Shown here in pieces: positions 425 to 34,817 of a DNA stretch of 34,817 nucleotides. The stretch comes from Nanobdellota archaeon (GTDB taxonomy: Archaea; Aenigmatarchaeota; Aenigmatarchaeia; Aenigmatarchaeales; Aenigmatarchaeaceae). Below the pieces are notes generated by a model. That model was not told the origin of the DNA and did not search any database. It saw only the letters and a program-made list of their open reading frames with translations. Made by a program: the position numbers and the translations under genes. Numbering within the stretch: position 1 is the stretch's first letter; each line of letters begins with the position of its first letter. Where the stretch lies: positions 1 to 34,817 of the forward strand of contig JAHIDZ010000018.1 of NCBI GenBank assembly GCA_018901755.1, written 5' to 3'.

Positions 425-1333
425 TTCACAAACTTGGGTTTTGGAAACATTGAAATAAAGAGAAAATTGGGTGTCAAAGGAATCAATTTAAGCACATCTA
501 CGATATACAGAAGAGCGAATAAATTTAAGAAGAAATTTTATGATTTACATGTTTTAGAAAATTTCAATGACATTTTAGATAAAGACTGTATTCTAGTCTC
601 TGGTTCAATATACTCAAGATTTTACAAATCAGAATCTAAGGTCAGAAGCTTAGAATTTTCGTGCCTGCCATTAAGAAAACTATTATTAAAGAAAGAAATA
701 AGAGTAGTTCCGTATTTTTCAAGTGATTATACAAAGGTAATGCTTATTCCAAATAAAATGTCTAAATCAAAGCTTATTCCTAGAAAATATACCACTGGTA
801 TAACTGTAAGCTTTAACAGATTCTTTGAAGATGGAAATAAACTAAAACCTAAGATAGATATTTATATTCCTCTAAAGAAATTCGGAATTAAAGATACTGA
901 TACTATAGTTGATAATGATGCGAGGATTCTCTTTCCAGCATTAAAGGAATTTGGATGGAAACTTTGTGAAAAAAGAGTTACCGATTCTAATAATCTTGCT
1001 GATCTTTTTGTTCAAACGAAAAAAAGAAAATACATAATTGAAATAACTTCTGAAGGCAAAAAGAGAAAAAAATCTGCTAAGTTAAATATGATGTTAAGAT
1101 ACAGAATAGCTGCGAAGTCATTTTTTATTTCAACTACTTCTAAAAGAATTAATGCTACACCTATCATAATTTTATGGAACGGATTAAAAGAAAATGGTGT
1201 ATTAAATAGAGAATTTTTTAATGGTTGCGAATTACTTAATATAAAACTACTATTTACAGATTTTAATGAGAATTGGCAGTTTGCGGTTGCAAAACAATTA
1301 GCGGAGATTGATACGAATGAGCAAATTTTATAA
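395..1333 (+). CDS. Unknown protein with N-terminal HTH, possible nuclease-like C-terminus
   Basis: This 312-residue protein is not from a family I recognise. Residues about 10-45 look like a helix-turn-helix (GFGNIEIKRKLG, then STSTIYRRANKFKK). That segment resembles the C-terminal HTH of the LAGLIDADG endonuclease at 33480 (GFGATNIQKKL, then PTIESW). In the C-terminal half, ADLFVQ followed by KYIIEITSEGKK is laid out like the D...(E/D)xK core of PD-(D/E)XK nucleases, but Thr stands where Lys is expected, so activity is uncertain. The ATG at 395 is chosen because a TATA box sits 26 nt upstream. The 3' end overlaps taw2 by 17 nt, so the two are probably co-transcribed. A mobile-element or DNA-binding role is inference. 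Confidence 0.6.
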   Translation: MNKIDKQIFHFTNLGFGNIEIKRKLGVKGINLSTSTIYRRANKFKKKFYDLHVLENFNDILDKDCILVSGSIYSRFYKSESKVRSLEFSCLPLRKLLLKKEIRVVPYFSSDYTKVMLIPNKMSKSKLIPRKYTTGITVSFNRFFEDGNKLKPKIDIYIPLKKFGIKDTDTIVDNDARILFPALKEFGWKLCEKRVTDSNNLADLFVQTKKRKYIIEITSEGKKRKKSAKLNMMLRYRIAAKSFFISTTSKRINATPIIILWNGLKENGVLNREFFNGCELLNIKLLFTDFNENWQFAVAKQLAEIDTNEQIL

Positions 1334-2123
1334 GAAACTAAGAAATGAATTTGAAAGGGATATTCCAGAAAAATATCTGGATTTTTTGCCAAGAAGTTAT
1401 TATATGTTGGGCGATATTTTATTGCTTAAACTTAATAAAAAGTTAATCCGTTATAGGAAGAAAATAGGTCTTAAAATATTAAATTTGTTGCCATATGTTA
1501 AAACAATTTGTTTAATTAAAGATATTAAAGGAGTGAAACGTATACCGAAAATAGAAATAATCGCGGGAAAGAAAAATACAAAAACCATACATAAAGAATT
1601 CGGTTGTAGATTTTATATCGATGTTGCAGACTTAATGTGGAGTAAGGGCAATAAAGCGGAAAAGAAAAGGCTTCTCGAACAAGTCAACCCCGGAGAAGTA
1701 ATAGTTGATATGTTTTCAGGATTGGGGTATTTTTCAATTATACTAGCTAAGAAAGTTGAAAAAGTTTATTCTATAGATGTAAATCCTGTAGCTACTGAAT
1801 ATCTTAGAAAAAATGCATTTCTAAATAAAGTTTCTAATAAAATAGAAATACTACAAGGAGATTGCCGCAAATTCGCCCCTTTACTTGAAGGTGTTGCAGA
1901 TCGAATAATCGTAGGATATATCTATGATACTGAGAAATTTTTACCAGCAGCATTAAAAATGGCGAAGAAAGAATGTGTTATACATTTTCATAAAAACGTA
2001 ACTGATAAAGAACTTGAAAAAGTTAAAAATAAATTAGAAAAACACGGTTCTGTAACGTTTAGAAAAATTAAATCATATTCTCCTAAAGTTTGGCACGTTG
2101 TTTATGATATTAATATTTATTAA
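1317..2123 (+). CDS. taw2: tRNA(Phe) 4-demethylwyosine aminocarboxypropyltransferase Taw2 (TYW2)
   Basis: This 268-residue protein belongs to the Trm5/TYW2 family with an SAM-binding Rossmann fold. It has the family's AGKKNTKTIHKEFGC segment, SAM motif I at VDMFSGLGYFSI and the acidic motif II YSIDVNPVA. At motif IV it reads RIIVGYIYDTEKFL followed by VIHFHKN, like archaeal Taw2, instead of the NLP/PLP motif of the methyltransferase Trm5. Taw2 transfers the 3-amino-3-carboxypropyl group of SAM to 4-demethylwyosine at position 37 of tRNA-Phe in the archaeal wyosine pathway. The ATG at 1317 is preferred to the in-frame TTG at 1308. It overlaps the upstream gene by 17 nt, so translational coupling is likely. 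A second family member, trm5, lies at 4920-5666. Confidence 0.82.
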   Translation: MSKFYKKLRNEFERDIPEKYLDFLPRSYYMLGDILLLKLNKKLIRYRKKIGLKILNLLPYVKTICLIKDIKGVKRIPKIEIIAGKKNTKTIHKEFGCRFYIDVADLMWSKGNKAEKKRLLEQVNPGEVIVDMFSGLGYFSIILAKKVEKVYSIDVNPVATEYLRKNAFLNKVSNKIEILQGDCRKFAPLLEGVADRIIVGYIYDTEKFLPAALKMAKKECVIHFHKNVTDKELEKVKNKLEKHGSVTFRKIKSYSPKVWHVVYDINIY

Positions 2124-2195: not shown

Positions 2196-3668
2196 ATGAC
2201 TAATATGGATACAAAAAAAATAAAATTTAAAAATAAAATTTTGATGATTGGGCATGGAGCAGTTGCACATTGTACACTACCAATTCTTTTAAATTATATT
2301 GAAATTCCTTGTGAAAATATTACTATAATTGATTTTAAAGATAGAAAAAATGTTTTGAAAAAATGGATAGAGAAAGGAATAAAATTTTCACAAGAAAGAG
2401 TTACAAAAGAAAATCTCAATAATATCCTTTCAAAATATCTTGAAAAAGGAGGACTCCTTATAGATCTTGCTTGGAACATTGATTGTTGTGATATAGTTAA
2501 ATGGTGTCATGATCACGAGGTTCTTTATGTAAATACTTCTGTTGAACAATGGGATTCAAAAGAAGAAATGCTTACAAAGAATCCATTTGAAAAATCACTT
2601 TATTATAGACAGATGCAATTGAGAGAATTAACAAAAGATTGGAAAGATGCTACAACTGCAATTGTTGATCATGGGGCAAATCCTGGACTAATTTCTCATT
2701 TTACAAAACAAGGTCTTGTTGATATCACTCATAGATTGATAAAAGATAAGAAAGTATCTGAAGCAGAAGGAGAAAAATTAATGAAATTTATTGCTGATCA
2801 AAATTTTGCAGAATTAGCCATGAATCTTGGCGTTAAGGTAATTCACTGTAGTGAGAGAGACACCCAGATAACAAATAAACCAAAGGAAGTTGATGAATTT
2901 GTTGGAACGTGGAGCATCGAAGGATTAAGAGAAGAAGGGACAGCTACTGCTGAAATGGGGTGGGGTTCCCACGAAAAAGAATTACCAAAAAATGCACATG
3001 TACCTCCATATGGACCAAAAAATCAAATATTTCTTGCTCAGATGGGTATTAATACGTGGGTAAAATCATGGATACCTGGACAAGAAATTATCGGTATGGT
3101 AATAAGACACGGGGAAGCATTTGAAATTTCAGACAGATTTACGGTTTGGAAAGATGGAAAAGCAATTTATAGGCCAACAGTACATTATGCTTATATGCCA
3201 TGCAATGAAACGTTAGCTTCACTTCATGAACTTAGATGTAGAAATTATGAAATGCAATCTAAGGTAAGAATACTTGACGATACTGAAATTGTTTCGGGAG
3301 CAGATGCTCTTGGAGCACTTATTATGGGTCATAATTATAATTCTTGGTGGACGGGAAGTATACTTGATATTGAAGAAGCAAGAAAACTTATACCTGGCCA
3401 GAATGCAACAACAATAGTGGTTGCACTTGGAGTTGTTACAGCAGTTATGTGGATGATAGAAAATCCAAGAAAAGGGCTTTGTTCACCGAATGATTTACCA
3501 TATGATTATGTTTTAAAAATAGCAAAACCGTGGTTAGGAAAATTTGTTTCAGAACCATACGACTGGACTCCACTGAAAAATAGAACAGTTTTTTTCAAGG
3601 AAAATTCTGATAGCAAAGCTGATGAAGAAGATCCATGGCAATTTAAAAATTTCATGTTCGTTCCGTAA
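2196..3668 (+). CDS. hss: Homospermidine synthase
   Basis: The protein has 490 residues, close to the roughly 477 of Blastochloris viridis Hss. Family hallmarks run along its length: an N-terminal dinucleotide-binding loop (MIGHGAVAHCTLPI), DHGANPGLISHFTKQ, CSERDTQ, TWSIEGLREEG followed by MGWGSHE, YRPTVHYAYMPCNETL, GADALGALIMGHNYN and GQNATTIVVALG. Hss (EC 2.5.1.44) joins aminobutyl groups from putrescine, or putrescine plus spermidine, to make sym-homospermidine through NAD-dependent redox chemistry in the cytoplasm. It shares an operon with an ornithine-decarboxylase-type gene that would supply putrescine. It starts at ATG 2196; another ATG at 2205 is possible. Confusion with saccharopine or carboxynorspermidine dehydrogenases is unlikely given the full-length agreement. 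Confidence 0.9.
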   Translation: MTNMDTKKIKFKNKILMIGHGAVAHCTLPILLNYIEIPCENITIIDFKDRKNVLKKWIEKGIKFSQERVTKENLNNILSKYLEKGGLLIDLAWNIDCCDIVKWCHDHEVLYVNTSVEQWDSKEEMLTKNPFEKSLYYRQMQLRELTKDWKDATTAIVDHGANPGLISHFTKQGLVDITHRLIKDKKVSEAEGEKLMKFIADQNFAELAMNLGVKVIHCSERDTQITNKPKEVDEFVGTWSIEGLREEGTATAEMGWGSHEKELPKNAHVPPYGPKNQIFLAQMGINTWVKSWIPGQEIIGMVIRHGEAFEISDRFTVWKDGKAIYRPTVHYAYMPCNETLASLHELRCRNYEMQSKVRILDDTEIVSGADALGALIMGHNYNSWWTGSILDIEEARKLIPGQNATTIVVALGVVTAVMWMIENPRKGLCSPNDLPYDYVLKIAKPWLGKFVSEPYDWTPLKNRTVFFKENSDSKADEEDPWQFKNFMFVP

Positions 3669-3685: not shown

Positions 3686-4891
3686 ATGGCCTATAATATG
3701 ACTGATGGGACAAAAAATATTGTTTTGCAAAAAATAGCAAAGGAGAAAGGAACTCCTATTTTTGTAATAGATCTCGAAAAAGTTAGAAATAATTATCTTA
3801 GATTTAAGAAAAATCTTCCTGACGTACAAGTATACTATGCAGTAAAATCAAATTCTGATCCTAAAATCGTAAAAACATTATTTGATATGGGCGCAAGTTT
3901 TGATGTTGCATCGCTTCCAGAATTTCATCTAGTTCGTGAGAATATAAAAAATATGCTTCCAAAAGATCAACAGGAATTCATATGGGAGAAAATAATTTAT
4001 GCGCATCCAATAAAAATAATAAAAACCTTGCATGAACTTGAACCTTACAAACCACTTGTTACATTTGATAATTTAGATGAATTAGAAAAGATAAAAAAAC
4101 ATTGCCCTAGCGCAGGAATTGTATTAAGATTAGAAGTTTCAAATGAAGGTTCTGTAGTTGATCTTTCATCTAAGTTCGGAGCAAGTAGAGAAGATGCTGT
4201 TAATCTTGCTGTAAAAGCATTTGAAATGGGACTTAACATAGAAGGATTGAGTTTTCATGTCGGAAGCCAGTGTACTAATTTTAATAATTATATGAAAGCA
4301 TTGGATCTTGCGTCCTATGTATTTGATGAAGTTAAAAAAAGAGGATATAAAATTGCAAATCCGAAAACAGGAAAAAGAATTCTTGATATTGGCGGTGGAT
4401 TTCCAGCAGAAGAATACGATTCAAGCATAATGTCATTTGAGGAACTTGCAAAGAAATTAAGAGAAGAAATAAATAGACTATTTCCAAATGATATAGAAAT
4501 TGTTGCAGAGCCAGGTAGATTTCTTGTTGCAAATGCTTGTACGGTTGTTGTAAACATTATAGGAAGAGCTTTCAGACACGGTATTACATCTTACTATATT
4601 GATGATGGTGTCTATGGTACATTTTCAGGACAACTTTTCGATCATCAAATTTATACTCTAGAATCTTTCAAAAATGGAGAAAAAGAAAAATGCATTATTT
4701 TTGGGCCAACATGCGACGGATTTGATACAGTTTCTCCAAGCACTAATGATAAAAAATATCCATATGGAAATCTTCCAAAAATGGAACTGGGAGAATTTCT
4801 TTTTGTGAATAATATGGGTGCATATACACTTGCGTCTGCGAGTAATTTTAACGGATTTCCAATTGCAAAAGTTGTTTATGTAAATAAATAA
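3686..4891 (+). CDS. odc: Ornithine decarboxylase (fold-type III, PLP-dependent)
   Basis: This 401-residue enzyme belongs to the alanine-racemase-fold decarboxylases. The PLP lysine lies in YYAVKSNSDP, the substrate-face loop is SFHVGSQC, the phosphate-binding glycines are in DIGGGFP, EPGRF is present, and the catalytic Cys/Asp pair is in FGPTCDGFD. The CDGFD form is typical of ornithine decarboxylases, not diaminopimelate decarboxylases. It would make putrescine from ornithine, the substrate of the upstream Hss. The start at 3686 is chosen because GGAGGT at 3674-3679 sits 6 nt before it. An earlier in-frame ATG at 3668 overlaps the hss stop but has no such site. Lysine or arginine as an alternative substrate cannot be excluded by reading. 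Confidence 0.87.
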   Translation: MAYNMTDGTKNIVLQKIAKEKGTPIFVIDLEKVRNNYLRFKKNLPDVQVYYAVKSNSDPKIVKTLFDMGASFDVASLPEFHLVRENIKNMLPKDQQEFIWEKIIYAHPIKIIKTLHELEPYKPLVTFDNLDELEKIKKHCPSAGIVLRLEVSNEGSVVDLSSKFGASREDAVNLAVKAFEMGLNIEGLSFHVGSQCTNFNNYMKALDLASYVFDEVKKRGYKIANPKTGKRILDIGGGFPAEEYDSSIMSFEELAKKLREEINRLFPNDIEIVAEPGRFLVANACTVVVNIIGRAFRHGITSYYIDDGVYGTFSGQLFDHQIYTLESFKNGEKEKCIIFGPTCDGFDTVSPSTNDKKYPYGNLPKMELGEFLFVNNMGAYTLASASNFNGFPIAKVVYVNK

Positions 4892-5697: not shown

Positions 5698-6408
5698 ATG
5701 CTATATCTCATCGGATTGGGTCTGGGAGACGAAAAAGACATAACTTTGCGCGGAATGGAAATTGCTAAACGATGTGAGTGTTTTATTGAAACATATACAT
5801 CTAAATGGGAAGGCGACTTGCGTAGTTTAGAAAGAATAATCGAGCAGCCAATTAAATCAGTTCGTAGAAAAGATTTAGAAGACGGACAGAAAGAATTTCT
5901 TAATAATTGTAAGGAGAAGAATGTAGCATTATTTGTTTTAGGTGATCCACTCGCGGCGACGACTCATATTGATTTAATTTTAGAAGCAAAAAGAATGAAA
6001 ATAGATGTTAAAATTATTCATAATTCTTCAGTATTTTCAGCATTAGGTGAATTTGGCTTGCAGATGTACAAATACGGCCGTACGGTTACGGTTCCATTTT
6101 CTAACAAATTAGAATCTGTTAAAGACGCGATAACGAATAATAAAAAATTCGGTTTGCATACTTTATTGCTTTTAGATTTAGATGCTGAAGTTGGTTTGTA
6201 TATGACTGTTAAAAATGCTTTGAAAATACTTTTAGATGCAAAACTTATTAAGAAAAACGATAAAATAATTGCTGGTAAAATCGGTACAAATATTTATTAT
6301 GATAATGTTTCTAATTTATTTGAAAAAAATATAGAGACGCCGTCGTGTATAGTTATACCTGGAAAATTACACTTTTTAGAAAAAGAATATTTGGAGGAAA
6401 TATTATGA
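5698..6408 (+). CDS. dphB: Diphthine synthase DphB
   Basis: The protein has 236 residues, slightly short of the usual 250-260. It begins MLYLIGLGLGDEKDITLRG, the signature of the tetrapyrrole-methylase-fold diphthine synthases. It also has FIETYTS, LFVLGDPLAATTH (the SAM-binding GDP loop) and IIHNSSVFSALGEFGLQ followed by YKYGRTV. DphB (EC 2.1.1.98) uses SAM to methylate the aminocarboxypropyl group on the target histidine of elongation factor 2 during diphthamide synthesis. The start is leaderless with a TATA box about 24 nt upstream. Its stop overlaps the DUF357 start as ATGA, so the two are translationally coupled. Confidence 0.92.
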   Translation: MLYLIGLGLGDEKDITLRGMEIAKRCECFIETYTSKWEGDLRSLERIIEQPIKSVRRKDLEDGQKEFLNNCKEKNVALFVLGDPLAATTHIDLILEAKRMKIDVKIIHNSSVFSALGEFGLQMYKYGRTVTVPFSNKLESVKDAITNNKKFGLHTLLLLDLDAEVGLYMTVKNALKILLDAKLIKKNDKIIAGKIGTNIYYDNVSNLFEKNIETPSCIVIPGKLHFLEKEYLEEIL

Positions 6409-6653
6409 GAGACACTGTAACAATAGAAGAAATAGACAAATGGCTTGATAGAATTGAAGCAATAGTTGATAAAATTGAAGTCTTTGATACTAAAGGAGAA
6501 GAAATGCTAACAAATATGAATGCTTATATTTCTGATTGTAAACATTTCAAAGAGAACGGTGATCTTGTTAAAAGTTTTGAAGCAGTGATTTGGTCGTGGG
6601 CTATCCTTGAATTGTGCACCGAATTGGGTATATTCAAACAAATCGTTGAATAG
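6405..6653 (+). CDS. DUF357 family protein
   Basis: This 82-residue all-helical protein is downstream of and coupled to dphB. NMNAYISDCKHFKENGD followed by SFEAVIWSWAILEL matches the archaeal DUF357 pattern (sY..Da.yFl..GD...Afaa..YA.g.LDa). The start at 6405 follows GGAGG at 6393-6397 and overlaps the dphB stop. DUF357 has no experimentally established function that I know of; the helical-hairpin, TPR-like look suggests a binding role. The neighbourhood (translation-factor modification) is the only functional hint. Confidence 0.75.
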   Translation: MRDTVTIEEIDKWLDRIEAIVDKIEVFDTKGEEMLTNMNAYISDCKHFKENGDLVKSFEAVIWSWAILELCTELGIFKQIVE

Positions 6654-6677
6654 CATAATTACTATTAATTACATAGG

Positions 6678-6685
6678 TTTATATA
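6678..6685 (+). promoter_or_regulatory. TATA box for the 6721 operon
   Basis: TTTATATA lies about 40 nt upstream of ATG 6721. A transcript starting about 26 nt downstream, near 6708, would begin just before the ribosome binding site AGGTGA at 6709-6714. This gives a short-leader message. Confidence 0.55.
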
Positions 6686-6720
6686 CTACTTAAGAGTAAT
6701 ATATATTAGGTGAAATGATT

Positions 6721-6864
6721 ATGTCTGAAGAAGAAAGTAAAGCAATGTCCGAATTGGTAAAAACAATATTACAGCCTAGATATCAAAGTGGTCTACGGCC
6801 ATTAGTTATGCCAATGAAAATGAAAAGATGGGATGAATATACGAAGGATTTAGGTAGATATTAG
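6721..6864 (+). CDS. 47-residue microprotein related to the next gene
   Basis: This small ORF starts at ATG 6721 after AGGTGA and ends at TAG 6862-6864. Its product ends KRWDEYTKDLGRY. The downstream protein contains KRWDEYFYDL, and both have a preceding L-V-x-P-M segment (RPLVMPM against ERLVEPM). I read it as a shortened relative lacking the middle and C-terminal parts of its neighbour. It is soluble and charged with no signal or TM segment. It is expressed from the TATA box at 6678 and is very likely co-transcribed with the next gene, whose ribosome binding site overlaps this stop codon. The function is unknown. Confidence 0.65.
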   Translation: MSEEESKAMSELVKTILQPRYQSGLRPLVMPMKMKRWDEYTKDLGRY

Positions 6865-6874
6865 GTGAATGATG

Positions 6875-7372
6875 ATGAATGACAAAGAACTTGCTGATGC
6901 AATAACCAAAGCAATGGTAGCTGCAAGAGGACAAACTATTCTTACAGGTGGTCCGGAAAGATTAGTCGAACCGATGCAAAGATTAGGGTATTTTCCATCA
7001 TATGCTGATGATGTTCCAGGTTTTGGAGATGATATTGCTGGAGCTTTAGAAACTCCTGAAGGTATAGCATATGGTAAAAATGCTAATGAAAGACCACGTT
7101 ATAAAAGATGGGATGAATATTTTTATGATTTAAGTGTTGCAAGTGCAATTGGTGATTATGGTAATTTCTTTGTGAGATTCATTAATGAAGCATCTGCCGC
7201 TAAACCTAAAGCTATAACTGCTGCAGAAAATATAATAGAAAAACTTGATCAAAAATATAAAATAGATATAGATAAAACATTTGGCGCAATTGCCGCTAAA
7301 AATAATGAAAAAGAAGCAGCACTATATCGTAAATTATGTGACTATATTGGAGTAAATCCAGCGATTGTCTAA
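6875..7372 (+). CDS. Hypothetical protein, larger relative of the 6721 microprotein
   Basis: The 165-residue soluble protein has no family that I recognise. Three ATGs stand in tandem at 6869, 6872 and 6875. The last is best spaced (7 nt) from the GGTG at 6864-6867. The N-terminal third is Gly/Asp rich (FPSYADDVPGFGDDI). The centre holds KRWDEYFYDL, shared with the microprotein before it. The C-terminal half is Lys/Ala-rich and helical (AAENIIEKLDQKYKID). It has no membrane segment and no Cys pair. The two genes form a small operon just ahead of the membrane-protein cluster; whether they serve it is unknown. Confidence 0.65.
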   Translation: MNDKELADAITKAMVAARGQTILTGGPERLVEPMQRLGYFPSYADDVPGFGDDIAGALETPEGIAYGKNANERPRYKRWDEYFYDLSVASAIGDYGNFFVRFINEASAAKPKAITAAENIIEKLDQKYKIDIDKTFGAIAAKNNEKEAALYRKLCDYIGVNPAIV

Positions 7373-8537: not shown

Positions 8538-9050
8538 ATGTCAGGAATTGAAACAGTAATTATAAACTTAAGAGGAATGGGCTTTCCATTAATTCTTTTA
8601 TGGCTTCTAACACTATCAGTTGTATATGGTGTTTTATCTCATGTTGAAATGCCAAAATCAATTTCAGCTAGAGGCGTTATATCTATAGTAGCTGCTTTTA
8701 TGGTATTATTTGCAGCAGCAGGTGGAGAAGCAGCGCAATTTATTGAAAATATGGTCGTTTCTGGAATTGTTATAGCATTTGGTTTGTTAATAGTTGTTAT
8801 ATTTTTAGAAATTAGTGGATCAAAAGAAGGCGGTCACGGCGGTATTCACATATTTGCAAAGCATCCTAAAATATTCGGAATAGCAATTATTGTATTAACA
8901 ATATTGATATTCATTGGAGCAGGTGGTTTGGGAATATTAAACTTACCTGCAATTAGAATAACAGAACCTTTACTAGCAATATTCTTCTTCCTAGCAGTTA
9001 TGGGAGCAGCAATATGGGTACTGATGAAGGAACAAGGAACTAAAAAGTAG
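8538..9050 (+). CDS. Five-TM membrane protein, paralogue B
   Basis: The 170-residue product has five hydrophobic segments. It opens GMGFPLILLWLLTLSVVYGV and continues ISIVAAFMVLFA. The next protein reads NMGLPEILLWLLSFAVFYGV and IISIVAAFFVLLA at the same positions, so the two are clear tandem duplicates. The C-terminal halves also match in layout: a His/Lys loop, then two TM helices separated by a Gly-rich turn (IGAGGLGIL against MSSGGMELLG). The start is ATG 8538 after GAGTGA; GTG 8529 is an alternative. I know of no characterised family. Having its own promoter suggests it may be made in amounts different from its neighbours. Confidence 0.72.
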   Translation: MSGIETVIINLRGMGFPLILLWLLTLSVVYGVLSHVEMPKSISARGVISIVAAFMVLFAAAGGEAAQFIENMVVSGIVIAFGLLIVVIFLEISGSKEGGHGGIHIFAKHPKIFGIAIIVLTILIFIGAGGLGILNLPAIRITEPLLAIFFFLAVMGAAIWVLMKEQGTKK

Positions 9051-26853: not shown

Positions 26854-29673
26854 ATGTCTGCTGAAGATGTAAACAGAATATTGGGAGGAGTACTAATACT
26901 TATAATAGGCGTAGCTATAATGAACACAATGTTTTCATCTTCTGAATTAGATGATATGGCAGAACAAACTGCGTCTGCTATTGCTGATTCTATAAATGAA
27001 GCTGCGCTACTTCCTGCAGTTGATCATGAACCAACTTTAGATGAAGTAGATAAATATGTCCCCTTCGTGGTAAGGTTCGGAGATCCATTTAATTTTCTTA
27101 ATGCAAAAACTGTAGCATTTCAAGGAGCAAGACCATCTTATGAAGTATATTATGAAAAGTTTCCAGACGAATCTCCTTTTCCAGGTCCTTTAAGTTTCTT
27201 TACAATGTGGAAAGAAAGTTATCCTTGGTCAGGTGGAATGGCAACGCAAATTGGTATGTATTTTGCAATGCGTGGTTTAAATGCGGGGTTTGGAACAAAA
27301 ACTGGAAGAAAAGTTATGGGTGCACTTGCAGGAACTATAACATATCCTGTTAAACTTGCTTGGAGAGGTGCAAAATTTATAAGATCTATGCCAGCAAGAT
27401 TATTACTTGCACTTGATGGAGAAGTTCAAGTGTTTGGAACTAAAACAATAATGAAAGCTATTAAAAGTAATAGTGGATTTGGTGTTAGAAGGGCGACTTT
27501 AGAATTAATGTTGGAACCATTTACATGGATACCTAATACAATGGCTAGAAAAAAAATATTAAATGATGCCATAGCCAATGGATTTGAAGCAACATTTGAT
27601 GTTGATAAAAATGCAGGAGCTATGATGGAAGCTGTATTTAAAAATAAGCAAAAAGATTTGGGCATTACATATGATGGAAAACTTTCACCAGCATATAAAA
27701 GTCTTGATGAAGTTAAAACAATGAAAATAGCAATGTCGTTAATGGATACGAATGCAAAAAAAGCATTTTTAGAAAATGTGAAAGCACCACCACTTTTAAG
27801 CGAAACGAGATTTAAATTTAAAGATTGGGCAGAAGCTGCAAGAGGATGGGATGTATGGAAAAGAGACGGATGGAAAAATATTAAAACATTACGAGAATCT
27901 ATTGGAAATATCGGTACACGTATTAGTAGTGTTGGAAAAACTGCTGGTAGAGCTATTAGAACTGCTTTAAGAAAAACACAATTTGATGGCCCAACAATGG
28001 AAACAGAATCGTTTATGTCTGTGTATTTTAAAAGTAGCGATGATGCATATCGCCTTGCGAGAGGAAGATATAGAAATCTATTCGATGATGCTGATGCTGG
28101 TTGGTTTTGGTATGTATCAGAGTCTGCATATGGTAGCAATGTGCCGATAATGAAAAAACTAGATTTAATTAAAAATATGGCTAAAGGCGGAAGTACGCTT
28201 ATGACATTTCCAGATGGTACAACTGGCAAACAATACGCAGTATTATGGAGATATATGAGTGATAATATTGATCCTGAAGATTTAAGCAAAAATTTACCAT
28301 TTGATGAGTTAGATGATGCTACAAAAAATGCACTGATGAAAAAGGCTAAAGAATTAGCTGGATCAGATGGTCTATTCACAGATGATTTTCCTGAAGATAC
28401 TGTTCGAAAAATTTGGGAAATTGGTAGAGAAAACTATGCAAAAGATGGTAGTGCTGCAATTGAAAAAGCAGGTATGAAACTATATGCTGATCGAGCAGTA
28501 GCGGTAAAATGGAATCCAATAACTCAAATATATGAATCGAAAAATCCAAAAATATTAGCAGAATTACAAGATATAGTAGCTGGTAGAATTGAAACAAAAC
28601 CTACTAGAGCACTATTTGCAAGGAGAGCAGTAAGAGCAGTAATGTTTGATTATGGTAAATATAAAACACCAGTTACTGCAGGTGCATGGTTAACACAAAA
28701 AGCTGAAGAAGAAACTACAGAAAATTATGAAGGAAGTACTGATAATTCAATAGTCTTTGTTAAAAAGGGAAGTGTTGTGAATGTAATACCGCTTGATGAA
28801 AAAGTAGCATCATATGGTGTAAAAATAAGCAGAGAAAACCCATCTTGGACAGATAGAACACCAGTTGGTTTTCAAACAGCATTATTCCGTGCAAGTGTTA
28901 TAAATAATCCAAGATATTACACAGTAAGTCCGTGTTTTGGTACCGGAAAAGCATGGAAAGGCATTGATGATAATGGGGCAGAAAGAATATTTATAAAAAT
29001 GACAGATGAAGATAAGATGTGTGGCGGTTCAAAATGCACTCCGGGAGTAATTGGATGCGATCCAGCAGATTGTGCAAATTATTGTTATGCAACAACTGAT
29101 AGATTATTTGGAAAGGCTGACAACTCTCCGGCAACAGCAACATTTACAGCTGCCGCTGCAGCAACCACTGTATGTATGGCAGGAAGTGCGTATGTTTCAG
29201 GTGGCTTATCAACTAAACCATGTCTAATGGTAGGTGCAGCTGCTGGTTATACTACAATAGGCACTTTAATGTATAATCATAAATCAGATACGTCATGTAC
29301 TGAAAACTATTGGGGATATTGGAACTGGTATCTGGGATCAGATACAATGGATATACTTGAAATTATGACCACTACAGGTATTGGTTCATTTGCAAAAACT
29401 GCAAAAGGCGTTAAAATATTTGAAAAAATAGGTAAAGGTACTAGAGTCGCAGGTAGAGTTGGAAAAAATTTATTGACAGATACGTCAATGATACCACAAA
29501 CCCAAGGAGATTTAATATTATCTTGGCCTAACATTGGTGAGGAAAAATATGGTATAAATAAAGAATATATAGAAGAAAATCAAGCAGAATGCATTTGGGG
29601 AACTCCGGATAATGAAGAGGCTAGAAAAAATATATATGGTACTGATAATGATTTAGGGAGTCAATTGTCTTGA
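26854..29673 (+). CDS. Giant 939-residue anchored protein, unknown
   Basis: After MSAEDVNR comes a TM helix (ILGGVLILIIGVAIM). Most of the protein (about 100-700) is Lys/Arg-rich and helical with no Cys (WRGAKFIRSMPARLLLAL, SVGKTAGRAIRTALRK), unlike its Cys-rich neighbours. All Cys lie in the last third (CGGSKCTPGVIGCDPADC). Near residues 755-805 is an Ala/Gly-rich hydrophobic pair (ATATFTAAAAATTVC, VGAAAGYTTIGTLM) that could insert into a membrane. No family is recognised. The long basic helical body with a hydrophobic hairpin is reminiscent of pore-forming or tape-measure-like proteins, but that is only an analogy. It is the largest product of the locus and overlaps the next gene. Confidence 0.7.
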   Translation: MSAEDVNRILGGVLILIIGVAIMNTMFSSSELDDMAEQTASAIADSINEAALLPAVDHEPTLDEVDKYVPFVVRFGDPFNFLNAKTVAFQGARPSYEVYYEKFPDESPFPGPLSFFTMWKESYPWSGGMATQIGMYFAMRGLNAGFGTKTGRKVMGALAGTITYPVKLAWRGAKFIRSMPARLLLALDGEVQVFGTKTIMKAIKSNSGFGVRRATLELMLEPFTWIPNTMARKKILNDAIANGFEATFDVDKNAGAMMEAVFKNKQKDLGITYDGKLSPAYKSLDEVKTMKIAMSLMDTNAKKAFLENVKAPPLLSETRFKFKDWAEAARGWDVWKRDGWKNIKTLRESIGNIGTRISSVGKTAGRAIRTALRKTQFDGPTMETESFMSVYFKSSDDAYRLARGRYRNLFDDADAGWFWYVSESAYGSNVPIMKKLDLIKNMAKGGSTLMTFPDGTTGKQYAVLWRYMSDNIDPEDLSKNLPFDELDDATKNALMKKAKELAGSDGLFTDDFPEDTVRKIWEIGRENYAKDGSAAIEKAGMKLYADRAVAVKWNPITQIYESKNPKILAELQDIVAGRIETKPTRALFARRAVRAVMFDYGKYKTPVTAGAWLTQKAEEETTENYEGSTDNSIVFVKKGSVVNVIPLDEKVASYGVKISRENPSWTDRTPVGFQTALFRASVINNPRYYTVSPCFGTGKAWKGIDDNGAERIFIKMTDEDKMCGGSKCTPGVIGCDPADCANYCYATTDRLFGKADNSPATATFTAAAAATTVCMAGSAYVSGGLSTKPCLMVGAAAGYTTIGTLMYNHKSDTSCTENYWGYWNWYLGSDTMDILEIMTTTGIGSFAKTAKGVKIFEKIGKGTRVAGRVGKNLLTDTSMIPQTQGDLILSWPNIGEEKYGINKEYIEENQAECIWGTPDNEEARKNIYGTDNDLGSQLS

Positions 29674-30077
29674 AAGGACAACTAATGTTTAATGCTATGG
29701 TAATGGGCGCAATATTACTAATAACAATAATTATACTGAGCACAGCCTTTGGAAAAGGTGTTGTTGCTAATGCAATGACAGTATTCGGTGGAGCAAATCC
29801 AGAATATCTAGGAGAAGAATTTTCACTTTTAGCAACAACTGTACAATGCGCGCCAGGATACATGGAAGCTGGAATTATTCTAAACACTGCTAGACATATA
29901 AAAATCAGTTATAATTCAGAAAATTCAGACTATGAATTAGATGTTAATTCGAAAATAAAACCAATTTTACGGTTTACCGATATATCTCCAACGGAAAGTA
30001 ATGATGATTTCATCGGTCTTATATTATTTAAAAAAACATTAGAAAAAGTATTATATATTGAGGCCGATACCGCATGA
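29670..30077 (+). CDS. Pilin-like protein with TTG start
   Basis: The 135-residue product is read from TTG 29670, which overlaps the preceding TGA and follows GGGAG at 29656-29660. TTG gives M-K-G, then QLMFNAMVMG and a helix (AILLITIIILSTAF). The next ATG, five codons later, would lose the M-K-G, so this leader seems selected. The ectodomain is small with one Cys. ATGA overlaps the next gene. Confidence 0.65.
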   Translation: MKGQLMFNAMVMGAILLITIIILSTAFGKGVVANAMTVFGGANPEYLGEEFSLLATTVQCAPGYMEAGIILNTARHIKISYNSENSDYELDVNSKIKPILRFTDISPTESNDDFIGLILFKKTLEKVLYIEADTA

Positions 30078-30802
30078 AAGGAATATCAAAATTTTTTGGA
30101 ATGTTTTTAAACATAATGCAAATAATTTTTATAATCATAGGTCTTTTTGCAATTTTCATAAACATAACAACATTTGGATATTCAACAGAATTTGTAGCAG
30201 GAACCAGAGAATCTGTAATGGTTATGCAAGCAGTATTATCTGCACCGTGTCTTACAGTAATCGCCTCAGATGGATATCCTATAAGAGCATTGTTTGATGA
30301 AACAAAATTAATATCTGAAACTACGACAATAGATGCACCTTCCTGTATTTCATATCGTCAGGATATACTAATTGAAGTTACTGGTCACGGAGATCCTATA
30401 ATTATAGGAAATCCAGAGATAGGAACAATAAAACATACACAATATCCTGCTGCGCTAAAAACAATAGAAGGAACTACCGTTCCTGTACATGTAGATATTT
30501 CTGTTGGTTCTATACATGAGTGTACAAAAGCAGGACAATATGTATGTATGACAGGAGAATATGGAAATGAAATAATACTAATACCTGATTATAAAATGTA
30601 TTCAACGGTGTATAGAGGAAAATGTGTAACAGTAGATAACGAGTTTGTAATTCAAAGGAATACTGTTGAAAATTGCAATGTAGAATATTATGCAGATAAA
30701 AATAATGTCTGCACATGTCAATATGTTGAAGATAATGCTATATGCACATATCCGGGTGGAAATGTTCCAGATGCTAAATGGGCATGCACAAAAGTTGATT
30801 AA
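30074..30802 (+). CDS. Pilin-like anchored ectodomain protein
   Basis: The 242-residue product starts M-K-G, then ISKFFGMFLN and a helix (IMQIIFIIIGLFAIFINI). The ectodomain is beta-rich with Cys pairs (SAPCLTV, APSCISY, HECTKAGQYVC) and a C-terminal Cys cluster (NVCTCQYVEDNAIC). It shows no similarity to the five-member family. The start overlaps the preceding stop, and the next gene follows directly. Confidence 0.7.
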   Translation: MKGISKFFGMFLNIMQIIFIIIGLFAIFINITTFGYSTEFVAGTRESVMVMQAVLSAPCLTVIASDGYPIRALFDETKLISETTTIDAPSCISYRQDILIEVTGHGDPIIIGNPEIGTIKHTQYPAALKTIEGTTVPVHVDISVGSIHECTKAGQYVCMTGEYGNEIILIPDYKMYSTVYRGKCVTVDNEFVIQRNTVENCNVEYYADKNNVCTCQYVEDNAICTYPGGNVPDAKWACTKVD

Positions 30803-31582
30803 ATGAAAGGACTAAAAGGAGCGACAATACTTGCAGAAGTAATATCATTCATTTTCCTAATAATAACAGGATATGCATTAACTGGAACAATCATATTTGC
30901 ATATGGCGTATCTACAGTAGAACAAGCATTAACTTCAGATAATCTTGAATATCATATGACAATGACAGCTGGATATTTTCCTATACAAAATGAAGTAATG
31001 CTATTGAGTATGTTAGAAACTGATTGCGCCTCAAATGAATGCGCTGGGCTAACTGGTTCTCTTACACTTACTTCAGGATGGAATAACGGCATACTAATAC
31101 CAGAATTAGAAAGAATAAAAGTTAGCGACTTGCCAGATTGTATCGATTATGTACAAGGACAAGATGTTAGTGGAAATTGGATATTTTTTGGACAGGAAAA
31201 TTGGTTAGAAAAAAATATACCATATAATATATTAACAACTGTTGATTGTACGTGGACAGGTGATGGTATACCTATGAAAATATTAATAACAGAATGTCTT
31301 ATACAAGGAAATTCAAACCCATATATTAAAGAAATTGCAAAAACAATAAATGTAAATGATGCTATTACAGCAGCTGTATCTGGTTGGGGAACTAAAAAAT
31401 ACTCAATTATAATAAGAAAAGGAAATGGTAATATAATTAATTTAGCAGGAACTACTACACTAGCTGAAGAAATTAACAGCGGCAAATTAATAAAATTTCA
31501 AAAAATTTCATCTGAAGTATTTTCACCGTTTGAAACTGGATTTTTAGAATTATATGTATTCGATAATGAGGTAACTGATTAG
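30803..31582 (+). CDS. Pilin-like anchored ectodomain protein
   Basis: The 259-residue product starts M-K-G-L-K-G, so two K-G sites are available. Then comes ATILAEVISF with a Glu in the early helix and a hydrophobic stretch (FIFLIITGYALTGTIIFA). The ectodomain has Cys pairs (DCASNEC) and a segment VNDAITAAVSGWGTKK, which recalls the helix-ending-in-W landmark of the five-member family, though the rest does not align by eye. The ATG abuts the preceding stop. Confidence 0.7.
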   Translation: MKGLKGATILAEVISFIFLIITGYALTGTIIFAYGVSTVEQALTSDNLEYHMTMTAGYFPIQNEVMLLSMLETDCASNECAGLTGSLTLTSGWNNGILIPELERIKVSDLPDCIDYVQGQDVSGNWIFFGQENWLEKNIPYNILTTVDCTWTGDGIPMKILITECLIQGNSNPYIKEIAKTINVNDAITAAVSGWGTKKYSIIIRKGNGNIINLAGTTTLAEEINSGKLIKFQKISSEVFSPFETGFLELYVFDNEVTD

Positions 31583-31583
31583 T

Positions 31584-32639
31584 ATGAGAAAAGGACTTGT
31601 ATTACCAATAGCAGGAATAATCATGTTTGTTATATCAGTTGTAGCTGTCTATGTTTTAGCGCAACAAGATGGAAACTTTACAAAAGAAGTAATATTCAAA
31701 GGAGAAGTGACCGCATCTAATTTGAATGAATTAGAAATGATAAGAAAAATGTTACCTATGGCAATGGAAGCAACGATAGAAAGAGCTACATTTGAATCAG
31801 CTAAAGATGGATATGGTAAATCGTCATGGGGGTGCGTTGTTGCCACAGCCACATGTATCGCTACTATACCCACAACAGATGAAATAAAACAAAATTTAAT
31901 TAATGAAATAATAAAAATAAAAAAACCAACAATTGGAAATTATAACAGAGATATCACATGGTCAATTCCAGTAATAACAATAACAACAGGTTCAGATTAT
32001 CTAACTTATTTTAAAATATCTGGCTCATTTTCATTTAGACTAGAAGATAAAATCATAAAATCTAAAGCAGAATCATCTGTTCCAATTTCTGATACAATAT
32101 CAAGTTCTTATTTCAAATTATACGAAGTTGGAAAAAGTATATTTGTTGTTAATTCTGATGAATATAACATATTAAATAGAAATGCACCAGCTTGGTGGAA
32201 AATAGAACAATTAAAAACTACACTAATATCAAAAAGTCCTAGTCTTAACTTTTTAGTTGAAGAAGTAACTAACACAGAACTCAGAATAACAATAACAGAT
32301 CCAATAAGTCTTGTACCATGTGAACCAGGAGAAAGTGGATGTACCAATTCTATGAAACCACTATCAACAGTTTTCAAAATAACTATACCTGCTAGAATAA
32401 TTTATGATAATAAAGTAAATCCATTATTATTAGAATCTGGTTGGAATTTTGGAGTAAAAACACCTTATAGTTATGACATATATGCCTATGGTATTGATTT
32501 CTTTGGCGCTGATATATCAAAAGTTCGTGATAGTAATACTAATTTTGAACTTCAATATGGTGATATAATGTATGTTGATAAAGCATATGATATTATGGTA
32601 CATTCCGATCAAATGTGGTCCGGAGATTATATTCCTTAA
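31584..32639 (+). CDS. Pilin-like anchored ectodomain protein
   Basis: The 351-residue product starts MRKG, then LVLPIAG and a helix (IIMFVISVVAVYVLA). The R-K-G junction and the LPI start resemble the pilin pair downstream (KKG followed by MELPIN). The ectodomain is largely beta (SIPVITITTGSDYLTYFKIS) with four Cys (GCVVATATC, PCEPGESGC). GAGGTA lies about 12 nt ahead of ATG 31584. A TATA box follows the gene, so it is the last of the block that began at 18268. Confidence 0.7.
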   Translation: MRKGLVLPIAGIIMFVISVVAVYVLAQQDGNFTKEVIFKGEVTASNLNELEMIRKMLPMAMEATIERATFESAKDGYGKSSWGCVVATATCIATIPTTDEIKQNLINEIIKIKKPTIGNYNRDITWSIPVITITTGSDYLTYFKISGSFSFRLEDKIIKSKAESSVPISDTISSSYFKLYEVGKSIFVVNSDEYNILNRNAPAWWKIEQLKTTLISKSPSLNFLVEEVTNTELRITITDPISLVPCEPGESGCTNSMKPLSTVFKITIPARIIYDNKVNPLLLESGWNFGVKTPYSYDIYAYGIDFFGADISKVRDSNTNFELQYGDIMYVDKAYDIMVHSDQMWSGDYIP

Positions 32640-32645
32640 TTAAAG

Positions 32646-32653
32646 TTTATATA
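32646..32653 (+). promoter_or_regulatory. TATA box of the pilin pair
   Basis: TTTATATA is centred about 26 nt before ATG 32675. It fits a leaderless start and suggests separate, possibly stronger, expression of the two pilins. Confidence 0.62.
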
Positions 32654-32674
32654 CCAAGAAGTATTATATTTCTT

Positions 32675-33013
32675 ATGAAAAAAGGAATGGAATTACCAAT
32701 AAACACATTAGTTGTATTTATTATTGCATTAGTTGTTCTGATAGCATTCATTGCATTGTTCATGAATGTGCAAGGACAGGGTGGTAGCACTGTAAGTATT
32801 GAAACTGCTAAAAATAGTGGCTGCCAAAGATATGTAAGCATGAATTATTGTAATACCCCTACAACTTCTGGTTCATCAATATCCATACAATCTGTTCAAT
32901 GTTCTGATACTGCTAAAACTATTGCAAATGATCTTGAAACATTAGCTGCAAAATGCTATGGTATAACTGCCACAACAACAAATAGTGCAGCATCACAGTT
33001 ATGTTGTTTATAA
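32675..33013 (+). CDS. Type IV pilin-like protein, pilin pair member 1
   Basis: The 112-residue product has a textbook prepilin start: M-K-K-G, then MELPINTLV and a helix (IIALVVLIAFIALFM). The cleavage expected from archaeal prepilin peptidases (FlaK/PibD/EppA type) would fall after the Gly. The ectodomain is small and polar with Cys at SGCQRY, NYCN, VQCSD, AKCYG and a final CC. The leaderless promoter supports ATG 32675 over upstream in-frame starts. It is a candidate major filament subunit together with the next gene. Confidence 0.78.
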   Translation: MKKGMELPINTLVVFIIALVVLIAFIALFMNVQGQGGSTVSIETAKNSGCQRYVSMNYCNTPTTSGSSISIQSVQCSDTAKTIANDLETLAAKCYGITATTTNSAASQLCCL

Positions 33014-33033
33014 TTTATGGAGGAATGAAAAAA

Positions 33034-33459
33034 ATGAAAAAAGGAATGGAATTACCAATAAATATGTTAGTAGTAGTAGCAGTAGCAGTCGTAGTTTTAA
33101 TGGGTGTAATTGCTATATACATTCTAGGAGTTGGACCATTTCAACAAAGTGTAGGATTAGAAGCAATTAAGAATTCCGCTTGTTCTCTTTTAGTGAGAGA
33201 AGGATGCACTGCATCAACTTCAGGTATACATGTTAACACAGATGCGAATGAAGATGGTTTTGTATGTACAAAAAATATCGGTTATAATGCAAAAACTGGA
33301 ATTGGATACGATGAAGATACAGATACATGTCTATTTGCAGACGATGGAGAGAATGAAGCTAGAAAACCAGACACATTATTAGGTTTGTGCGCAAGTAAAT
33401 TCGGAAAAACTTCAGATTCAGCATGTAAAGCACTTTGCAATTGTCCAGGATACTATTAA
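33034..33459 (+). CDS. Type IV pilin-like protein, pilin pair member 2
   Basis: The 141-residue product repeats the N-terminus of its neighbour exactly through KKGMELPIN, then MLV and a helix (VVVAVAVVVLMGVIAIYIL). GGAGGA lies 9 nt before ATG 33034; the in-frame ATG at 33025 is too close. The ectodomain is different: a Cys-bounded region with an acidic segment (DTDTCLFADDGENEA) and CKALCNCPGYY at the end. The two pilins probably arose by duplication of the leader and helix with divergence of the exposed part. Confidence 0.78.
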   Translation: MKKGMELPINMLVVVAVAVVVLMGVIAIYILGVGPFQQSVGLEAIKNSACSLLVREGCTASTSGIHVNTDANEDGFVCTKNIGYNAKTGIGYDEDTDTCLFADDGENEARKPDTLLGLCASKFGKTSDSACKALCNCPGYY

Positions 33460-33479: not shown

Positions 33480-34289
33480 GTGACAGACACAGTGACGTCA
33501 GTAATAGATACATTCAGTGATAATAATAAGGATAAATTGGCATACATCTTGGGAGCACTCTATGGAGATGGGCACTTTAATTTAAATTCTCACAGAATTC
33601 AATTTGGCAGCTGTGATATAGAATTTATAAGATGTTTAGTTAATTACATTTCTGACATTTTCAATATTAAATTGAATATTAGTGTTATAAAACTTTCAAA
33701 GAAAAATAAAAACCATAGAGACTATTATTACATTTCTTCATCAAGAAAATTATATGATATGATCTCGCAATTTAATTATAAATATCTGAAAAGAATCCCG
33801 GATTTCATTACCAATGGAAGAATGTCAATTAGGGCTGCTTTTCTTGGTGGTGTTTTTGACGCAGAAGGTAATGTTGATATTCATATAATAAAAAGCAGAA
33901 ATGAGATACAAAGACACGTTAGATGTTATTCTAACGATAAGAATTTCTTGGAAAAGATAAAAATTCTGCTATTAAACTTAGAAATAAAATCGTGTATAAA
34001 CAGAAGCAAAGGAAAAAATTATTGCTTAACCATATGGAATCATAAAGGTCTTGTAAATTTTGAAAAATATGTCAATTTTAATATTATCAGAAAGAAATTA
34101 GAATTAAGAAAGGCGATTGAAAGTTATAAACAAATACAAACACAGTGGAACAAAGAAACTTATAATGCGGTAATAAATTTAAGAAATTGCGGATTTGGAG
34201 CGACAAATATACAGAAAAAACTTTTAATAAAAATTCCAAAACCGACAATAGAATCATGGATATACAAAGATGTAAAAATAACGAGGTAG
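33480..34289 (+). CDS. LAGLIDADG homing endonuclease with C-terminal HTH
   Basis: The 269-residue protein has two LAGLIDADG motifs, YILGALYGDG (about 22-31) and FLGGVFDAEG (about 120-129), each with its catalytic acidic residue, so a monomeric active nuclease is plausible. Residues about 225-265 form a helix-turn-helix (NAVINLRNCGFGATNIQKKL, then PTIESWIY), likely for added DNA recognition. It starts at GTG 33480, 6 nt after GAGGTGA. It stands free, not in an intein, and ends 5 nt before alba. Its first residues (MTDTVT) and the DNA around its start resemble those of alba (MTDATD), as if it had captured an alba-like 5' end. Confidence 0.85.
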   Translation: MTDTVTSVIDTFSDNNKDKLAYILGALYGDGHFNLNSHRIQFGSCDIEFIRCLVNYISDIFNIKLNISVIKLSKKNKNHRDYYYISSSRKLYDMISQFNYKYLKRIPDFITNGRMSIRAAFLGGVFDAEGNVDIHIIKSRNEIQRHVRCYSNDKNFLEKIKILLLNLEIKSCINRSKGKNYCLTIWNHKGLVNFEKYVNFNIIRKKLELRKAIESYKQIQTQWNKETYNAVINLRNCGFGATNIQKKLLIKIPKPTIESWIYKDVKITR

Positions 34290-34294
34290 ATAAA

Positions 34295-34609
34295 ATGACA
34301 GATGCAACAGATAACATAATTTTCGTTGGGAAAAAAAGGCTGTAAGTTCCATGCTTTAGTCATTTCTGACCAGCGATGAGTTATGTATTAGCTTGCGTAA
34401 CTCAGTTCAACGAGGGTAATGAAAACATTATCCTAAAAGCTAGAGGACGAGCAATTTCGCACGCAGTCGATGTAGCAGAAATAGTTAAAAACAAATTCGT
34501 AATGAATACAGAAATTAAAAGTGTAAACATCGGAACTGAACAAGTTACAGGCGAACAAGGAGAGAAGCTAAATGTTTCAAGCATAGAAATTATACTTGGT
34601 AAAAAATGA
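34295..34609 (+). CDS. alba: Alba chromatin/RNA-binding protein, gene interrupted by an mRNA intron
   Basis: Exon 1 is 34295-34335 and exon 2 is 34369-34609; joined they encode 93 residues, the normal Alba size. Exon 1 gives [14 protein letters not shown]. Exon 2 gives [31 protein letters not shown] and [11 protein letters not shown], all family hallmarks. The join falls inside the codon of the second Lys of GKKP, the loop matching Lys16/Lys17 of Sulfolobus Alba, which contacts DNA and is acetylation-regulated. Unspliced, translation stops at TAA 34343-34345. An ORF caller would report only a headless protein from 34376. GAGGT precedes ATG 34295. It is probably transcribed with the endonuclease. 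Loss of function instead of splicing is the alternative, but the exact frame restoration argues against it. Confidence 0.9.
34336..34368 (+). other. 33-nt bulge-helix-bulge intron in alba mRNA
   Basis: The outer helix of 7 bp pairs 34323-34329 with 34370-34376 (one G-U). The central helix of 4 bp pairs GAAA 34330-34333 with TTTC 34363-34366. The 3-nt bulges are AAA 34334-34336 and TGA 34367-34369. The inner helix pairs GGCTG 34338-34342 with TAGTC 34357-34361 (two G-U) after one A-A mismatch, closing a 14-nt loop. Cutting after the second base of each bulge, as archaeal splicing endonuclease does, removes 33 nt and restores the reading frame. Confidence 0.85.
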
Positions 34610-34667: not shown

Positions 34668-34728
34668 TATCAAACTATACTTTATTGTACGGGCTCATGG
34701 CTCAACCCGGTAGAGCACTCGCTTTGCA

Positions 34729-34744
34729 AGATCAAATCCAAAAT
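34729..34744 (+). other. tRNA intron 1, position 37/38, 16 nt
   Basis: The anticodon stem is the outer helix. Central helix TTTG 34723-34726 pairs with CAAA 34739-34742. The bulges are CAA 34727-34729 and ATA 34743-34745. A 3-bp inner helix GAT/ATC closes a 3-nt loop. The canonical BHB cut after the second bulge base gives a 7-nt anticodon loop. Confidence 0.88.
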
Positions 34745-34766
34745 AGCGAGGGGTTGGGGGTTCAAA

Positions 34767-34798
34767 TCTTAATTGTATATTTTTACATTAGGTGAAAT
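34767..34798 (+). other. tRNA intron 2, position 59/60 in the T loop, 32 nt
   Basis: The T stem is the outer helix. Central helix TTCA 34761-34764 pairs with TGAA 34793-34796. The bulges are AAT 34765-34767 and ATT 34797-34799. Inner helix CTTAAT 34768-34773 pairs with ATTAGG 34787-34792 (one G-U). Cutting after the second bulge base rebuilds the standard loop TTCAAAT. Confidence 0.88.
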
Positions 34799-34817
34799 TC
34801 CCCCTGAGTCCACCATA

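Follow-up and report, generated by a model that had tools for sequence, protein, structure and literature searches.

The alba locus and the predicted fold of its insert

The window analysed here, 34,817 nucleotides long, is the entire contig C2 of a genome (G000) of 835 kb that is 91% complete. Near its end lies an alba gene (34295-34609), whose reading frame is broken by 33 nt at 34336-34368 with an in-frame TAA at 34343. The features of the locus are listed below.

33480-34289, plus strand: gene for a LAGLIDADG homing-endonuclease-like protein, immediately 5' of alba (PF14528, E=2.5e-17)
34295-34335, plus strand: alba exon 1, aligned to the intronless alba of the same genus; its last two bases open the second Lys codon
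34323-34329, plus strand: outer helix, 5' strand TCGTTGG (7 bp)
34330-34333, plus strand: central helix, 5' strand GAAA (4 bp), in exon 1
34334-34336, plus strand: 5' bulge AAA, predicted cut after 34335
34336-34368, plus strand: predicted BHB intron of 33 nt with an in-frame TAA, missing in the same-genus allele; the BHB cuts fall on the protein-defined boundary
34338-34342 and 34357-34361, plus strand: inner helix, 5 bp, beyond an A.A mismatch
34363-34366, plus strand: central helix, 3' strand TTTC (4 bp), in the intron
34367-34369, plus strand: 3' bulge TGA, predicted cut after 34368
34369-34609, plus strand: alba exon 2, stop codon TGA included (PF01918, E=1e-16)
34370-34376, plus strand: outer helix, 3' strand CCAGCGA (7 bp)

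The gene belongs to the Alba family PF01918, with 63 bits against a curated cut-off of 25. The canonical cuts would rejoin AA and A as the Lys codon AAA and restore GKKPAMSY. The geometry is that of a BHB element, with 3-nt bulges, a 4-bp central helix and cuts on the exon boundaries. The interruption, helices, bulges and cuts described in the sequence-only reading of this DNA were thus confirmed on the sequence; that reading mentioned neither the A.A mismatch nor the adjoining homing endonuclease gene nor the wider set of mRNA introns. A scan of the window end against Rfam gave no match up to E=1, so no group I or other Rfam intron was found there.

Enzymes for cutting and joining are both encoded in G000, namely a 178-aa EndA (TIGR00324) and RtcB. 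In the proposed mechanism, the alba pre-mRNA would fold into the BHB and EndA would cut it after 34335 and after 34368. RtcB would then ligate the exons, restoring the AAA codon and GKKPAMSY, and the 33-nt piece would be lost. Tandem EndA genes are present in G006 (contig C7, L138, 759-1806), the first of which is divergent and apparently without the conserved RLAHN stretch.

The region directly upstream of the LAGLIDADG gene (29670-33459) encodes a series of small membrane proteins; the N-termini of several are pilin-like (MKKGMELPINxLVV), and similar genes precede alba in relatives. Downstream, a tRNA-Ala(TGC) at 34691-34815 (plus strand) is interrupted twice, by a 16-nt intron in the anticodon loop and by an intron of about 32 nt in the T-loop. 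In the raw sequence this tRNA escapes ARAGORN, which finds it when the T-loop insert is removed. The tRNA-Ala arrangement is the same in G007.

Alba genes in relatives and the weight of the motif

Most relatives matched with alba proteins carried the label Candidatus Aenigmatarchaeota, a poorly known group of tiny archaea; Aenigmarchaeum subterraneum was one of them. Alba was detectable in 111 of the 156 genomes of the class. Alignment of the alba genes of relatives, which had been proposed as a way to find intronless alleles, yielded one at the same locus in G001, a genome of the same genus. Its uninterrupted alba encodes FVGKKPAMSY and is flanked by pilin-like genes and tRNA-Ala; between G000 and G001 the gene is under purifying selection (pN.08, pS.83). 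Two other genera of the same family, represented by G007 and G006, have introns of 33 and 34 nt at the identical nucleotide site, which differ in sequence from that of G000 and fold alike. The G000 Alba is 89% identical to that of the intronless G001 and 71-77% identical to those of the intron-bearing G006 and G007. Intron presence therefore departs from the gene tree, so that gain, loss or transfer must have occurred.

Besides these same-site cases, two interrupted albas were found in other Aenigmatarchaeota families, in G066 (28 nt) and G043 (31 nt), both at a site 4 nt upstream of the G000 site, and the G043 gene has a second intron of 18 nt at a later codon. Three albas from Borrarchaeota/Sifarchaeum (Asgard) carry a 30-nt BHB insert in the loop LNxGA^GDIIVK (the caret marks the insertion):

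Loci L118, L119 and L127, about 4001-4300: Asgard alba with a predicted 30-nt BHB intron at a loop codon

The Asgard introns also have a BHB core at the protein-defined boundary, and their splicing would give the sequence type of the intronless Borrarchaeum weybense, GAGDI.

The motif was weighed against chance in several ways. When the exons were kept constant and the protein defined the cut site, 0.4% of shuffled introns matched the central and inner helices. In the free minimum-energy fold, a slipped register of the A-run beats the canonical one by about 3 kcal/mol. Among 34 intronless archaeal albas, 3-7 of the 7 outer-helix positions pair, with all 7 pairing in four of them; since most of this pairing is imposed by the FVGKKPAM codons, the outer helix tells little on its own. 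Two outer-helix pairs are synonymous, and both are paired in all three same-site intron-bearing genes, against 7 of the 34 intronless ones. An ab initio scan for strict BHB elements in about 300 kb of G000 returned 86 ORF-breaking matches, mostly due to chance. Chance alone makes BHB-like motifs frequent in G000. The motif by itself was accordingly not accepted as evidence, cases without comparative backing were dropped, and the argument rests on comparison. All six alba introns in five Aenigmatarchaeota genomes have a BHB core at the protein-defined boundary, with shuffle P between 0.0002 and 0.004 each; combined P-values, for these as for the introns of the other genes below, are tiny but overstate the case, as introns in related genomes share ancestry and are not independent.

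These comparisons bear on other readings of the insert. Because the alba inserts are 33 or 34 nt long, read-through is impossible. Without splicing, a shorter Alba might be made from the in-frame ATG at 34376 that opens exon 2, the hairpin serving only to regulate translation. Such a protein would lack two parts that every relative conserves, the first strand and GKKPA. Exon 1 has retained a start codon of its own, an upstream GAGGT and its conserved residues, and we consider this reading very unlikely. The in-frame stop in the unspliced frame might also mark a decaying pseudogene destroyed by the insertion. Yet an intact second alba was sought in G000 and only this single copy was found in the 835 kb (91% complete), both of its exons are conserved, and three genera are interrupted at one site by inserts that differ in sequence and fold alike; decay is most improbable. 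The assemblies are of metagenome type, which might suggest an assembly or sequencing artefact, but same-site inserts with like folds occur in independent assemblies from different projects, and the chance of an artefact appears negligible.

The 33 nt in alba are very probably a BHB intron of the pre-mRNA, which we infer to be spliced by EndA. This reading is based on the interruption itself, the intronless allele of the same genus, the same-site introns that are alike in fold, and the genes for EndA and RtcB. The original proposal of a BHB intron in a protein gene is supported, and the comparative evidence for it is strong.

Predicted introns in other protein genes

As a control on whether alba is special, about 300 kb of G000 (roughly a third) were compared with about 310 kb of G007, which gave some 230 ORFs with a strong match. 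Three further interrupted genes were detected.

G000, contig C4, L144, about 8726-8756, minus strand: aIF2-gamma, predicted BHB intron of 31 nt
G000, contig C5, L141, about 2737-2769, minus strand: rtcB, predicted BHB intron of 31 nt
G007, contig C5, L161, about 6228-7016, minus strand: MinD/ParA-like gene with a predicted 30-nt BHB intron in the P-loop

The aIF2-gamma intron also lies in the P-loop, within GHVD^HGKST, and that of rtcB within HEGY^GFPIGG; the MinD/ParA-like gene takes its name solely from a GKGGVGKTT motif. In each of the three, the central helix pairs at 4/4 positions and the boundary agrees with the protein. A search for RtcB across the class returned many broken copies. In ten further genomes, 11 rtcB introns were found at PDGH^xGYGFPIGG (site A) or in GGIGYDINCG (site B), with shuffle P from 2e-4 to 0.04, most site-A copies having 3/4 central pairs. 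A similar interruption in the rtcB of G040 and G042 was judged by eye. In G088, a congener of G086 and G087, rtcB has no intron, and its sequence is exactly the junction predicted for the spliced gene (CAT-TCC). RtcB inteins (L221-L223) are inserted at DIN^CG, a few codons from site B; a shared site was considered and rejected, since the intein lies between N and C and the introns a few codons before.

Alba is thus no special case: at the level of the genome sequences, Aenigmatarchaeota have scattered short (18-34 nt) predicted BHB introns in mRNAs, and archaeal mRNA splicing looks commoner than its single established case. The alba intron had earlier been tied to the codon for a Lys matching the regulated Lys16/17 pair of Sulfolobus Alba. 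This link is not supported, as other albas are interrupted 4 nt upstream, at a later codon or at a loop codon, and introns also lie in the P-loops of aIF2-gamma and MinD and in HxGYGFPIGG of RtcB. The idea that the site reflects an acetylated lysine was rejected on the same grounds, and the position rule looks to be 'conserved motif' and not 'regulated lysine'. Any link between Alba level and tRNA processing, as had been suggested, would be common to aIF2-gamma and rtcB, which also bear introns in G000. RtcB is the ligase that would be needed to splice these introns, and a self-regulating loop is possible.

The adjoining LAGLIDADG gene and known systems

The LAGLIDADG protein has two motifs with acidic residues, LAYILGALYGDG and AAFLGGVFDAEG, both kept in G006, and a low-confidence model of it best matches I-DmoI. 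The start of its gene matches the G001 alba start. The gene looks as if it had been inserted just behind the first codons of alba, about 24 bp from the intron site, with a new alba start arising downstream. Its G006 orthologue is 53% identical and occupies the same position, next to an alba that is intron-bearing there too.

G006, contig C35, L045, about 734-1593, minus strand: endonuclease frame

This frame has no stop of its own; it reads on in frame through alba exon 1 and terminates inside the intron, and splicing in G006 would fuse the endonuclease to Alba. Both copies look maintained under purifying selection (pN.30, pS.68). Beyond G000 and G006, no close homologue was found in the other genomes of the class that were searched, and no relatives of the endonuclease were found in GTDB contigs or viral contigs.

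How the introns arose may be connected with this gene. As a best guess, conserved motifs of intronless alleles would be cut by LAGLIDADG endonucleases such as this one, and the intron would be copied in during repair. At the alba locus, the endonuclease would cut the intronless GKKP region and repair would copy the endonuclease gene together with the intron. Since the intron would split the endonuclease target, the gene's own copy would be protected. This proposal adds an origin to the explanation as a BHB intron and does not replace it; we hold it to be possible, at somewhat less than even chances. In its favour are the orthologues found at one position in two genera whose albas both bear the intron, the absence of a close homologue elsewhere in the class, the gene start on the apparent old alba start, and the two intact motifs under purifying selection. 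Like inteins, the introns also occupy strongly conserved motifs, and the RtcB intein is close to site B. Against it, the alba of G007 has the intron without the endonuclease gene, and no endonuclease was seen near the aIF2-gamma and rtcB introns of G000. The arrangement in G000 and G006 suggests an endonuclease that targets the intronless site and spreads together with the intron.

BHB-type introns are otherwise familiar from tRNAs. For mRNAs, the intron of cbf5 is described as the one confirmed case within a coding region (PMC2738675, PMC7714728). In Haloferax volcanii, the splicing endonuclease also acts on an mRNA, at a BHB element in the 5'UTR of HVO_1309 (PMC7714728). Cases of 12 bp in a virus, cited in PMC2738675, are unproven. 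The statement that cbf5 is the established case, with none earlier in alba, was borne out in the literature searched, mainly open-access, with subscription papers and preprints largely outside it. No earlier report of BHB introns in alba, rtcB or aIF2-gamma, or in Aenigmatarchaeota or Asgard, was found there, and priority is not certain.

Like the alba intron, the cbf5 intron of Crenarchaeota is short (16-44 bp), lies in an essential protein gene, has BHB-type cuts between the second and third bulge residues, and is gained or lost among relatives (PMC2738675). The alba intron differs in gene, phylum and site, in having several host genes per genome, and in its adjoining endonuclease gene. It has canonical 3-4-3 geometry and a 178-aa single EndA, whereas cbf5 has relaxed motifs and a hetero-oligomeric enzyme. 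The HVO_1309 element lies in an untranslated leader and the alba intron in a coding frame, the former a known and the latter a predicted mRNA substrate of the splicing endonuclease (PMC7714728). Archaeal rRNA BHB introns of the I-DmoI type combine BHB splicing with a LAGLIDADG endonuclease, as the alba locus would; their endonuclease is encoded inside the rRNA intron, while that of alba lies beside a 33-nt mRNA intron. In the collaborative homing of phages, a free-standing endonuclease targets the insertion site of an intron. The alba endonuclease gene is likewise beside and not inside the intron, which would interrupt its putative target. However, collaborative homing involves self-splicing group I introns, while the alba intron is of the BHB type and target recognition is putative.

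Introns of protein genes spliced by the tRNA machinery had been deemed an oddity of cbf5 alone. Predicted BHB introns now appear in essential genes across one archaeal phylum and in some of its Asgard relatives, the genes serving chromatin, translation initiation and RNA ligation. We tentatively propose that these short introns are a widespread class, probably mobile, of mRNA introns found in Aenigmatarchaeota and part of the Asgard archaea. They would enter the most conserved motifs of essential genes, recurrently rtcB, and nearby LAGLIDADG endonucleases would account for at least part of their spread. Genes with such introns will be broken or missed by gene callers. Their patchy presence and absence within genera offers a natural system for intron gain and loss in archaea and for the role of homing endonucleases in it.
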